NCBI GenBank assembly: GCA_016932715.1
Contig: JAFGCG010000108.1
Coordinates: 1-64,000, forward strand
DNA length: 64,000 nt
Direction: 5' to 3'
Source of the DNA: Anaerolineales bacterium
Lineage (GTDB): Bacteria > Chloroflexota > Anaerolineae > Anaerolineales > Villigracilaceae
Shown: positions 38,026-62,756 of the stretch, piece by piece
Layout of the letters: each line of letters opens with the position of its first letter
How positions within the stretch are numbered: the first letter of the stretch is position 1
Made by a program: the position numbers and the translations under genes
Notes under the pieces: generated by a model
Seen by the model: the letters and a program-made list of their open reading frames with translations, nothing else
Told to the model about the DNA's origin: nothing
The model's database searches: none

Positions 38026-40818
38026 TTATTTCAGCCTCTCTACCACTGCTTTTGCCACCTTATCCATCGCATCGTTCATCAGGGCCGGGTCGGGCAGGCT
38101 GCCTTGCGCCAGGTTGGGACGTCCGCCGCCGCGCCCACCAATGGAGGCGATCAGGTCGCCCGCTTTCAGCCCGCGCTTGACGAGGTCTTCGGTGACGACC
38201 GAGATCACCATCCCACCGGAGGTCAAAAGCGCCGCGCCATTCCTGGGATATTTCTCGCGGAACTTGTCCGCCAGGGTACGCAAAGTGTCCACGTTCGAAT
38301 TCGGAACATCCAGCGCCATCACATGGACATCCTTCACGGTCTGAACATTGGAAAGCTGCTGATTGAACGCGGAGAGCGCCTGCGACGCACGCAGGGAAGC
38401 GACTTCCTTTTTCAGGTCCGCAGCCTCATCCTGCAGGCTCTCCACTTTGAAGGGCACCTCTTCGAGGGATGTTTTCAGCACTGCCGCAGTTTGCTTGAGC
38501 AGTTTGAAGCGATGTGCGATCAGGTCATACGCCCCGCGTCCGGTCACCGCTTCGATGCGACGCACACCCGCTGCAGCCGACCCCTCGCTGACAATCAGGA
38601 ACGCGCCGACATCGGAGGTCCGCTCGAGGTGCGTGCCGCCGCACAGTTCATAGGAATGTTTCGGCATCTTTTCCATCACAGCCGTTGGGTGCGCAATGAT
38701 TTCATTCACCTCGAGAGCAGCAACATCCGATGGCAGGGTGATGGTGACCGTCCTGACGGTCTCACCATACTTCTCACCGAAGAGAGCCATGGCGCCCTCG
38801 GCGATCGCGTCCTCGCGGGCTTTTAGTTTGGGAATGACTTCCATATCAGACGCAATCGCCTCATTGACGAGCCGCTCGACGCGTTCGACCTGTTCGGGAG
38901 TCATCGCTTCAGGATGGTTGAAGTCGAAGCGCAGGCGACCGGGCGCGACCAGGGAGCCCGCCTGCCGCGCATGTTCGCCCAGCACTTTGTGAAGCGCGGC
39001 ATGCATGAGATGAGTTGCCGTGTGATTGCGCATGATGTCATGACGGCGCTGCATATCCACTTCGGCAATCACCAGATCACCAACTTTTGGCTGACCTGAA
39101 ACAACTTCGCCCACATGCACGATCACACCCGCCGAAGGACGGCGCATGCCGGTCACCTCGATCTCCCACGCTTCGCCTCCGCTCACGCTCCGCTCAGCGT
39201 GAATATAACCCGTGTCATCCACCTGACCACCGGACTCGATGTAGAAGCCGGTCTTGGGCAGAATGACCTCGACCTGATCGCCAAAGGAGACGGACTCTAC
39301 GGACTGTCCGTTCACGATCAGAGCAAGGACTTCGCCTTCGACGCGCGGTGAAGTATAGGGGTCGTATTCAACACCATGTTCACCGAGTTTCTTTTTCTTT
39401 TGCAAATCCTTCAAAATGCCTGCAAAGAATTCGGCGTCCTCCCCGCCAAGTTTGCCCATCGCTTTGCCGCCGCCGGAAGCAAGACGATGCTCATCCATGG
39501 CGAGGCGGAAACCAGCCTCATCCACGTCGAGGTTTTGCTCGCGAGCGATGTCGCGGGCGATCTCGAAGGGCAAGCCATAGGTCGCGTACAGGTCAAAGGC
39601 GCGGTGACCATCGAGGCTGGTCTGGTTCGAGCCGCGCAGCTCCGAGAGGAGATTCTCAAGATGAGCGGTACCCGACTCGACGGTCCGCGCGAAGCGGACC
39701 TCTTCCCGCGTCAAATTATCGAGGATCGCGCCGCGGCTTTTCACCAGTTCGGAATAGAACCCGCCGTATTCCTCGATCACGGCCTCCGCCACTTTGGCAA
39801 GGAACGGCTCGTGCAGCCCAATCTTGGTACCGAAGCGAGCCGCACGCCGGATGATCATGCGCGTGACATAGTTCCGTCCAACGTTGCCGGGCACGACGCC
39901 ATCCGCGATCAGGAACGCCGCCGAACGGACGTGATCGCAGATGACGCGATAGGGCGTGAAATCTGCATAGACTTGCGCTTCACTATGGCCCGTCAGTGAA
40001 CGCAGAACGTCGAGCGAACCTGTAAAGAGGTCGGTCTTGTAATTCGAGTCGACGCCCTGCAGTATGGAGACGATGCGCTCGAAGCCCATGCCGGTGTCCA
40101 CATGTTTGGCGGGCAGCGGCTCGAGGCGGCCATCGTCAAAGAGATTGTATTGAATGAAGACATTGTTCCATAGTTCGAGGTAGCGCTGGCAATCGTGGTT
40201 GACGCCGCAGACATGCCCCGGCACATCTTTCTTGTCGCAGAACTCTGCGCCGCGATCATAATGGATTTCCGAGCACGGACCGCAGGGACCCGTCTCCGCC
40301 ATCTGCCAGAAGTTTTCCTTGCGTCCGAAGAAAAGCACGTGCGATGGGTCGAACCCGGGCTGTTCCTTCCAAATGTCCGCAGCTTCGTCGTCGCGCGGGA
40401 TGTCCCCCTGGTCATCCTCGAAACAGGTGGCGTAAAGCCTGTCTTTGGGCAAGCCCCAGACATCGGTGAGCAGCTGCCATGACCAGGCAATTGCCTCCTT
40501 TTTGTAATAATCGCCGAACGACCAGTTGCCGAGCATTTCAAAGAAGGTGTGGTGCGCATCGTCGCGGCCCACGTCGTCGAGGTCGTTATGCTTGCCGGCG
40601 ACGCGCATGCACTTCTGCGAGTTGACGGCGCGCTTATACGGGCGTTTGTCGGTACCAAGGAACACTTCCTTGAATTGCACCATGCCCGAGTTGGTGAACA
40701 GCAGGGTCGCATCCCCACCCGGCACAAGCGACATGGACGGCACAACCGTATGGCCGTGCTCGACGAAGAAATCTATAAACGTCTGGCGAATCTCGTTCCC
40801 GGTCAATTTTTTGGTCAT
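38026..40818 (-). CDS. alaS: Alanyl-tRNA synthetase
   Basis: TGNEIRQTFIDFFVEHGHTVVPSMSLVP...FTNSGMVQFKEVFLG; NHTATHLMHAALHKVLG; ELCGGTHLERTSDVGAF. Confidence 0.97.
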   Translation of the reverse strand: MTKKLTGNEIRQTFIDFFVEHGHTVVPSMSLVPGGDATLLFTNSGMVQFKEVFLGTDKRPYKRAVNSQKCMRVAGKHNDLDDVGRDDAHHTFFEMLGNWSFGDYYKKEAIAWSWQLLTDVWGLPKDRLYATCFEDDQGDIPRDDEAADIWKEQPGFDPSHVLFFGRKENFWQMAETGPCGPCSEIHYDRGAEFCDKKDVPGHVCGVNHDCQRYLELWNNVFIQYNLFDDGRLEPLPAKHVDTGMGFERIVSILQGVDSNYKTDLFTGSLDVLRSLTGHSEAQVYADFTPYRVICDHVRSAAFLIADGVVPGNVGRNYVTRMIIRRAARFGTKIGLHEPFLAKVAEAVIEEYGGFYSELVKSRGAILDNLTREEVRFARTVESGTAHLENLLSELRGSNQTSLDGHRAFDLYATYGLPFEIARDIAREQNLDVDEAGFRLAMDEHRLASGGGKAMGKLGGEDAEFFAGILKDLQKKKKLGEHGVEYDPYTSPRVEGEVLALIVNGQSVESVSFGDQVEVILPKTGFYIESGGQVDDTGYIHAERSVSGGEAWEIEVTGMRRPSAGVIVHVGEVVSGQPKVGDLVIAEVDMQRRHDIMRNHTATHLMHAALHKVLGEHARQAGSLVAPGRLRFDFNHPEAMTPEQVERVERLVNEAIASDMEVIPKLKAREDAIAEGAMALFGEKYGETVRTVTITLPSDVAALEVNEIIAHPTAVMEKMPKHSYELCGGTHLERTSDVGAFLIVSEGSAAAGVRRIEAVTGRGAYDLIAHRFKLLKQTAAVLKTSLEEVPFKVESLQDEAADLKKEVASLRASQALSAFNQQLSNVQTVKDVHVMALDVPNSNVDTLRTLADKFREKYPRNGAALLTSGGMVISVVTEDLVKRGLKAGDLIASIGGRGGGRPNLAQGSLPDPALMNDAMDKVAKAVVERLK

Positions 40819-40881
40819 TCATACTCCAAGTGAGCTAGTGGCGGAATTATACCAAGCCGCCAAAGATGAAAGAAGATAGAT

Positions 40882-40916
40882 AACAAAAAGTCCCGAACCT
40901 GGTACAGATTCGGGAC
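40882..40916 (-). terminator. Leader intrinsic terminator (attenuator) upstream of alaS
   Basis: Minus strand GTCCCGAA (40916-40909) / TTCGGGAC (40897-40890) then TTTTTGTTA. Confidence 0.88.
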
Positions 40917-40936
40917 CGGAAGGACAAAGGTACGTC

Positions 40937-41029
40937 TCACGCTGTCACAGGTTCACAGAGCAGTCCCAGAGCTTGGGCTGCGCTCGTAGCCAGGGCAGCG
41001 GCGGCATGAAATTTGAGTTCCTGTTTCAT
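40937..41029 (-). CDS. Ala-rich leader peptide of alaS: MKQELKFHAAAALATSAAQALGLLCEPVTA
   Basis: 30 codons, 9 Ala, translated by hand; ATG 8 nt downstream of TATAAT (41043-41038); upstream of the terminator. Confidence 0.75.
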   Translation of the reverse strand: MKQELKFHAAAALATSAAQALGLLCEPVTA

Positions 41030-41034
41030 AGGGC

Positions 41035-41046
41035 GGGATTATACCA
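41035..41046 (-). promoter_or_regulatory. Extended -10 promoter of the alaS leader
   Basis: Minus strand TGGTATAATCCC. Confidence 0.7.
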
Positions 41047-41119
41047 TGTGAGGAGAGACGAAAGAGGAAAGAACGACGAGGGAAGTATGGCTTTCTCAAA
41101 GTTCAGATTGGAGACCTTC

Positions 41120-41201
41120 TGTACACGGATTTCACGGAACGGACGGAATTTTTTCCGTCATTTTACGGAGGAAACCGTGCTGTCCGTGGGTTCCGTGTAC
41201 A
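41120..41201. repeat. Palindromic element
   Basis: TGTACACGGA (41120-41129) / TCCGTGTACA (41192-41201) enclosing further CGGA/TCCG pairs. Confidence 0.8.
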
Positions 41202-41342: not shown

Positions 41343-42214
41343 ACCAATGGTGCTAGTTCAGAGTGAAAATTCGGCGATGCTCATTTTGAAAGGATCAGCT
41401 TCAGGATGGCGCAAGTGAAACAAATCCAGAAGGATGTTGAACATCGCCACGACATAAGCCAAGCGCATCTGAATGTAAGCGGACAGACGATGTCGGATAC
41501 GTTTCAGATCGCAGACGGTGGTCAACATCGAAAAGACCGTTTCGACACACATCCGCTCATTCCAGGTTCCTTTCTTGCAGATTTTCAGGTTTTCTGGCAC
41601 ACCGTCTTTGTCTCGAAAACCGAAATCTGCCAATACGATGGTTTCACCAATGAAGGGCGTAACCACGGGATGAAAGTGCTTGTCGTTCACATTCATTGTC
41701 GCCCAATCCCAATTGACGACGCGACACACCTCATTCAACAACATACAAATCTTGATCCCAATGCTCCACCGTCCTTTGTCGCGACCCTTTTTTCCAACTT
41801 GTTGTTTGCTCCGTCCCTCCCGGATCGGAAACAGCAACTCAACGGGATAACTATCGATCACAGTAAAGAAGTTCGGAGCCGACAACAGCAAATCACACCA
41901 ATCCTGATGGGTCTTGAGCAGACGTTGCAAGCGTGTCCGTTCTGGTAAGGTCCCATCGCCAAACCAATCACCATAATCCCGCTTCAGCCAACGATAGAAG
42001 GCTCGAAAGTGACCGCCTTTCAATGCAAACAGAATACCAATTGTCACCAACTCACTCGGATATAACTTTGCCTGAGCATGTCGAGGAATCGCAGGCAGAG
42101 AAGTTGCAACCAAGTAGAAAATGTGTAGGATAATATCCTCTGTAGTCATGGGGTGCCTCCTCGTAGGTTTCAGCACCCTTGAGGATACCCCATGACTCAA
42201 CTAGCACCAAAGGT
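41343..42214. mobile_element. 872-bp insertion sequence, probably IS982-like
   Basis: TIR ACCAATGGTGCTAGTT / AACTAGCACCAAAGGT (14/16); candidate TSD taata at 41338-41342 and 42215-42219. Confidence 0.85.
41358..42149 (-). CDS. DDE transposase (IS982-like)
   Basis: FFTVIDSYPVELLFPIREGR...ETIVLADFGFRDKDG...MCVETVFSMLTTVCDLKRIRHR; ATG 42149 after GAGGAGG. Confidence 0.85.
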   Translation of the reverse strand: MTTEDIILHIFYLVATSLPAIPRHAQAKLYPSELVTIGILFALKGGHFRAFYRWLKRDYGDWFGDGTLPERTRLQRLLKTHQDWCDLLLSAPNFFTVIDSYPVELLFPIREGRSKQQVGKKGRDKGRWSIGIKICMLLNEVCRVVNWDWATMNVNDKHFHPVVTPFIGETIVLADFGFRDKDGVPENLKICKKGTWNERMCVETVFSMLTTVCDLKRIRHRLSAYIQMRLAYVVAMFNILLDLFHLRHPEADPFKMSIAEFSL

Positions 42215-62657: not shown

Positions 62658-62756
62658 ATGAGATACGAACGAACTGACGAAATCTTCCTGTGCATCGGTG
62701 TGCGCGGATTTGACGGCGAAGGGGTCCCTCGAATCGCGCCTGTCGCCAGAAGATAA
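62658..62756 (+). CDS. Putative 32-aa leader peptide: MRYERTDEIFLCIGVRGFDGEGVPRIAPVARR
   Basis: ATG 9 nt after TATAAT, TAA 62754-62756, terminator 24 nt later. Confidence 0.55.
   Translation: MRYERTDEIFLCIGVRGFDGEGVPRIAPVARR

Follow-up and report, generated by a model that had tools for sequence, protein, structure and literature searches.

The window, a stretch of 64,000 nucleotides from an Anaerolineales bacterium, carries on its minus strand alaS (38026-40818, with the ATG at 40818), the presumed target of regulation, which encodes an alanyl-tRNA synthetase (AlaRS) of 930 aa with Pfam matches to PF01411 (tRNA-synt_2c, 1.9e-184), PF07973 (tRNA_SAD) and PF02272 (DHHA1). Upstream of it on the same strand, a distal -10 box, TATAAT (41038-41043), preceded by TGG, lies 8 nt before the ATG of a leader ORF (40937-41029) whose 30 codons (MKQELKFHAAAALATSAAQALGLLCEPVTA, then TGA) include nine for Ala, with Ala9-12 reading GCC GCC GCT GCC. 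Approximately 20 nt beyond the TGA begins the hairpin of an intrinsic terminator, the stem of which (40917-40889; 13 pairs, a 3-nt loop, -18.6 kcal/mol) runs into a stretch of T (the U-run of the transcript, 40885-40889, where the covariance-model match ends at 40885); the terminator ends about 70 nt 5′ of alaS. Between the two are a proximal -10 box (TTGGTATAAT, 40846-40851) and a Shine-Dalgarno GGAG, from which an unattenuated alaS transcript is predicted on the basis of sequence and family comparison. When the sequence was re-read, all elements of the original prediction were found where it had placed them on the minus strand (41043-40818), and so was the second TATAAT (40851-40846) that it had put between terminator and alaS.

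No sigma-70 -35 box was found upstream of the distal -10, and the leader promoter is therefore called on the extended -10 alone. In each of the 48 leaders measured, 6-9 nt separate the -10 box from the leader ATG (7 nt in 36 of them), and the leader mRNA is therefore probably leaderless; judged from the usual spacing between a -10 box and the start site, the first transcribed nucleotide would be the A of the ATG or lie 1-2 nt ahead of it. Directly upstream of the leader, a transposase-like ORF occupies 41358-42200 of the minus strand (DDE_Tnp_1_3, E 8.9e-5, under the curated cut-off), and an interspersed repeat with inverted ends (GTACACGGA...TCCGTGTAC) at 41086-41200 has several further copies in the genome and many in relatives.

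Conservation was assessed in a sample assembled by a DNA search of 40 relatives and by retrieval of alaS upstream regions. A strict scan, requiring a -10 box, 5-9 nt, an ATG, 15-50 codons with at least four for Ala and a terminator no more than 110 nt away, recovered the module from 54 of the 303 distinct regions upstream of alaS, 47 from the family of the window and seven from a second family (f8), so that the matches are confined to two families of one order; none was recovered from the 303 reverse complements or from 154 in-gene windows. Looser criteria add two f8 leaders. In the window's family, 49 genomes from several genera have this layout before alaS, as do nine genomes of f8, approximately 58 in all; the records that carry it include QEXW01000045.1, JAGUZU010000022.1 and JAGXKM010000022.1. 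The alignment across relatives that the original prediction had proposed as a check thus shows the short ORF, its Ala codons and the terminator to be conserved together, and this comparative conservation supports the predicted role of an Ala-codon leader and terminator as an attenuator before alaS. Within the window's family, the leader is absent from 47 of 96 alaS regions.

Searched with a covariance model of the leader, the genomes of the window's family each yield a single match, at alaS, except that genome G152 has a further, degenerate copy that lacks the Ala run (L159, G152:C369:30721-30837). This copy lies approximately 1.4 kb upstream of the alaS leader of G152 and precedes an ORF of 463 aa or more whose product resembles a membrane protein. 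In the other families of the order, covariance model R1 gave eight weak matches (E 4.5e-4 to 7.5e-3), which on reading revealed no Ala leader before alaS and were mostly ordinary terminators. Likewise, in approximately 50 alaS upstream regions from the other families of the class, f8 (reached via a named locus) excepted, no Ala-rich leaderless upstream ORF with a promoter was found.

The leader ORF carries a coding signal. Over 47 leaders, Ala accounts for 376 of 1238 codons (30.4%) in frame 0, whereas the shares of GCN in the other two frames are 6.4% and 5.7%; internal stops are absent from frame 0 but interrupt the other frames in 31 and 13 leaders. The Ala columns vary synonymously, one of them, for example, containing GCC 12 times, GCA ten times and GCT six times. 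As in a ribosome-mediated attenuator, the codons enriched in the short ORF are those of the amino acid handled by the downstream gene.

Four RNA segments on the minus strand could form mutually exclusive structures. Region 1 (GCAGCCC, 40975-40981) lies within the codons for S-A-A-Q and can pair with region 2 (GGGACUGC, 40960-40967), which can alternatively pair, as an antiterminator, with region 3 (40905-40918), composed of CG and the 5′ arm of the terminator (GUCCCGAAUCUG); region 4 (40890-40901) is the 3′ arm of the terminator (CAGGUUCGGGAC), as assigned by hairpin folding. In subtype A1, which comprises the window and six other leaders, the core sequences of regions 3 and 4 are CAGUCCC and GGGAC, all seven pairs of the 1:2 helix are kept in seven of seven leaders (100%), and the 8-bp 2:3 helix is kept at 94.6%. 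The GGGACU:AGUCCC antiterminator proposed originally is thus conserved in A1, and the duplex of the ORF with the terminator 5′ arm lies on average 4.3 SD below shuffles (mean z -4.3; z -1.7 for the leader of the window alone). A second segment, GAACCUGUGACAGC (40941-40954), overlaps the end of the ORF and is conserved across subtypes A1 and A2; its GAACCUG can pair with CAGGUUC in the 3′ arm of the terminator.

The same four-segment scheme is built from different sequences in three subtypes of the window's family and in a fourth in f8. In A2, to which most leaders belong, region 1 (CUCAAGCCG) consists of Gln-Ala codons and pairs with region 2 (CGGCUUGAG; 97.8% of pairs kept), GGCUUGAGAC pairs with region 3 (GUCCCGAACC; 92.9%), and ACCUGY can pair with RCAGGU of the terminator 3′ arm (91.1% over 32 leaders); in leader L072, a change on both sides, judged by eye, fits the ACCUGY:RCAGGU pairing and not the terminator. 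The corresponding segments of subtype B, also assigned by eye, are GCCCGGC, GCCGGGC and CCCGGC, and in the f8 leaders AGCCGGGC can pair, again by eye, with GCCCGG of the terminator arm. Each pairing outscores its partners slid by 1-3 columns. A competing antiterminator and anti-antiterminator, with region 1 in or beside the Ala codons, are thus found in A1 and A2 with 91-100% of pairs kept, above shuffles. Double compensation within a subtype is almost absent, and the structural case therefore draws most of its strength from the way in which the segments change together from one subtype to another.

As judged from these comparisons, the alaS leader is very probably a ribosome-mediated transcription attenuator that senses the charging of tRNA-Ala and operates besides a separate, unattenuated promoter. 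Transcription would begin immediately ahead of the leader ATG, and translation of the leaderless mRNA would follow at once. When Ala-tRNA is scarce, the ribosome would stall on the Ala codons and keep GCAGCCC off GGGACUGC, which would leave region 2 to pair with region 3; the 2:3 helix would block the terminator, and RNA polymerase would read through into alaS. When Ala-tRNA is plentiful, the ribosome would finish the ORF, the 1:2 hairpin would re-form, and the 3:4 terminator would stop transcription approximately 70 nt before alaS, the promoter downstream of the terminator providing a basal supply. On one point this model departs from the original prediction, according to which a ribosome that finishes translation covers GGGACU (40967-40962). 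A ribosome at the stop codon spans approximately 40957-40926 and misses this segment; shut-off is therefore more likely to be achieved by the re-formed hairpin of GCAGCCC with GGGACUGC.

Equilibrium folding of full-length leaders favours the terminator in nearly all of them at any ribosome position and gives no separation between leaders with and without a stalled ribosome; the switch must therefore act co-transcriptionally, as would be expected of a kinetic switch. For this reason, the effect of a stall was evaluated on transcripts that stop short of segment 4, with the Ala run masked as if occupied by a ribosome. Under these conditions, the terminator 5′ arm of the 33 A2 leaders is sequestered with probability 0.55 in the stalled state, compared with 0.36 in shuffles (Wilcoxon P 7e-7) and 0.21 when the ribosome sits at the stop codon (P 8e-9). 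The stalled state also exceeds shuffles in A1 (seven leaders) and in B (six leaders), with P 0.016 each, whereas stall and stop do not differ significantly in A1 alone (P 0.15) or in B alone. The leader of the window itself shows the opposite order, with 0.40 in the stalled state and 0.65 at the stop codon. Given this reversal and its z of -1.7, the case for the window's own leader rests on its relatives.

The same RNA switch could also be set by an arrest peptide, in which the stall would be caused by a nascent peptide sensing alanine or another small molecule and not by empty Ala codons. The Ala-rich stretch is indeed conserved at the amino-acid level, and a CEP.TA tail is common to many leaders. 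However, beyond the Ala run neither the sequence of the peptide nor its length, which ranges over 20-38 aa in the first family, is constant. The EPATA tail falls on the conserved RNA region 2, and leaders with an earlier stop codon (L007, L010 and L020) do without it; an arrest peptide is therefore improbable.

Sensing of tRNA-Ala charging through the Ala codons must also be weighed against an incidental upstream ORF, that is, a short leaderless transcript and a terminator that only insulate alaS or yield a small RNA. A further short ORF with a -10 box and ATG, followed by a strong terminator (MRYERTDEIFLCIGVRGFDGEGVPRIAPVARR), is present in the window at 62658 on the plus strand, so a leaderless short ORF with a terminator occurs elsewhere too. 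Furthermore, a proximal -10 box of alaS is found in 94 of the 96 regions of the window's family, mostly 24-41 nt upstream of the gene, and GGAG in all 96, whether or not the leader is present. Although such a separate promoter would suit an insulator, Ala codons are enriched in the reading frame only and upstream of alaS only, in two families, and the same segment logic has been rebuilt from different sequences; it would be surprising if an incidental ORF had these properties. The leader is better regarded as an attenuated distal promoter added before a basal one, since alaS has its own -10 box and GGAG regardless of the leader; the proximal promoter may reduce what the attenuator achieves overall.

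A functional small protein is very improbable: pN/pS over the ORF is below 1 (0.74 in A2, 0.69 in A1), but this constraint is weak, the ORF has no Pfam match, truncated variants occur, Ala dominates the composition and the pairing segments overlap the ORF. Autoregulation by AlaRS bound to its own promoter, with the leader merely a second transcript, has a precedent in E. coli, where AlaRS represses its own gene in this way, but it leaves the Ala codons, the terminator and their co-occurrence unexplained and hardly comes into consideration.

Within the attenuator, the choice of Ala codons is biased: GCC and GCT make up 82% of leader Ala codons (47 leaders), compared with 47% in 34 long ORFs of the window. 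This bias may mean that a single tRNA-Ala isoacceptor is sensed, although the Ala codons are also under constraint from RNA pairing.

Remnants of the leader are found in two genomes. In G004 (L160) and G084 (L097), the distal promoter and the Ala ORF are gone, region 2 and the terminator are retained, and a DUF4926 gene ends in HYEPATA or HYEPAMA directly at these retained elements. Because this tail resembles that of the leader, a deletion between short repeats would explain both cases. In L092, the stop codon of a similar gene tail overlaps the TATAAT of the leader. On the AlaRS tree, presence of the leader requires 23 gains or losses, compared with 43 in shuffles, but the tree is not resolved well enough to distinguish the two.

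The best-known peptide attenuators are those of Proteobacteria, Actinobacteria and a few Firmicutes. With the trp-type systems (trpL, hisL, pheL and the pheST leader of Enterobacteria), the Chloroflexota leader shares regulatory codons, regions 1-4, an intrinsic terminator and a target concerned with the same amino acid; it differs from them in its target alaS, in its predicted leaderless mRNA and in phylum. Attenuation of aminoacyl-tRNA operons was reportedly treated by Lopatovskaya in 2010, and alaS cases could be among them. Leaderless short ORFs with regulatory codons also lie upstream of the controlled gene in leuL and trpL of Streptomyces (PMC8079986) and in the mycobacterial polycysteine attenuators (as cited in PMC13236596), which differ in amino acid, target and phylum.

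The original prediction held that a peptide attenuator for alaS would be new, and on this point it was anticipated: AlaL-alaS of Streptomyces lividans TK24 was listed as an attenuator from RNA-seq in 2021 (PMC8079986). AlaL (MNVIGRNIFATARATSSPVAAA, then a stop; six Ala of 22) is likewise an Ala-rich peptide directly before alaS, but it belongs to Actinomycetota, another phylum, and the likeness, judged by eye on unaligned sequences, is limited to Ala content. The section describing AlaL gives no four-segment scheme, whereas the Chloroflexota leader has defined alternative structures and a second promoter in approximately 58 genomes. In the open-access literature searched, AlaL was the one earlier case for alaS, and no peptide attenuator was found in Chloroflexota.

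T-boxes, too, sense tRNA charging to control aminoacyl-tRNA synthetase genes. At the leader, neither a T-box (stem I, specifier loop, T-box bulge) nor any other Rfam family was matched, whether at the gathering score or with E values allowed up to 5. The genome of the window has approximately seven T-box matches, and among the matches listed none lies on the window's contig. Switches between a T-box and a leader peptide at one gene are known, for instance at hisS (PMC2965389). It is conceivable, though doubtful, that in this T-box-using lineage alaS gained leaderless Ala-codon attenuators more than once, in two families and from several unrelated sequences, and that these are tuned to a single tRNA-Ala isoacceptor.

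The alaS leader thus has the support of approximately 58 genomes, and its working appears to depend on leaderless translation. Because leader and T-boxes occur in the same genomes, it can be tested why one synthetase uses a leader peptide and other genes use a tRNA-binding RNA, and the turnover of pairing segments around a constant logic offers a natural series on the evolution and loss of attenuators.
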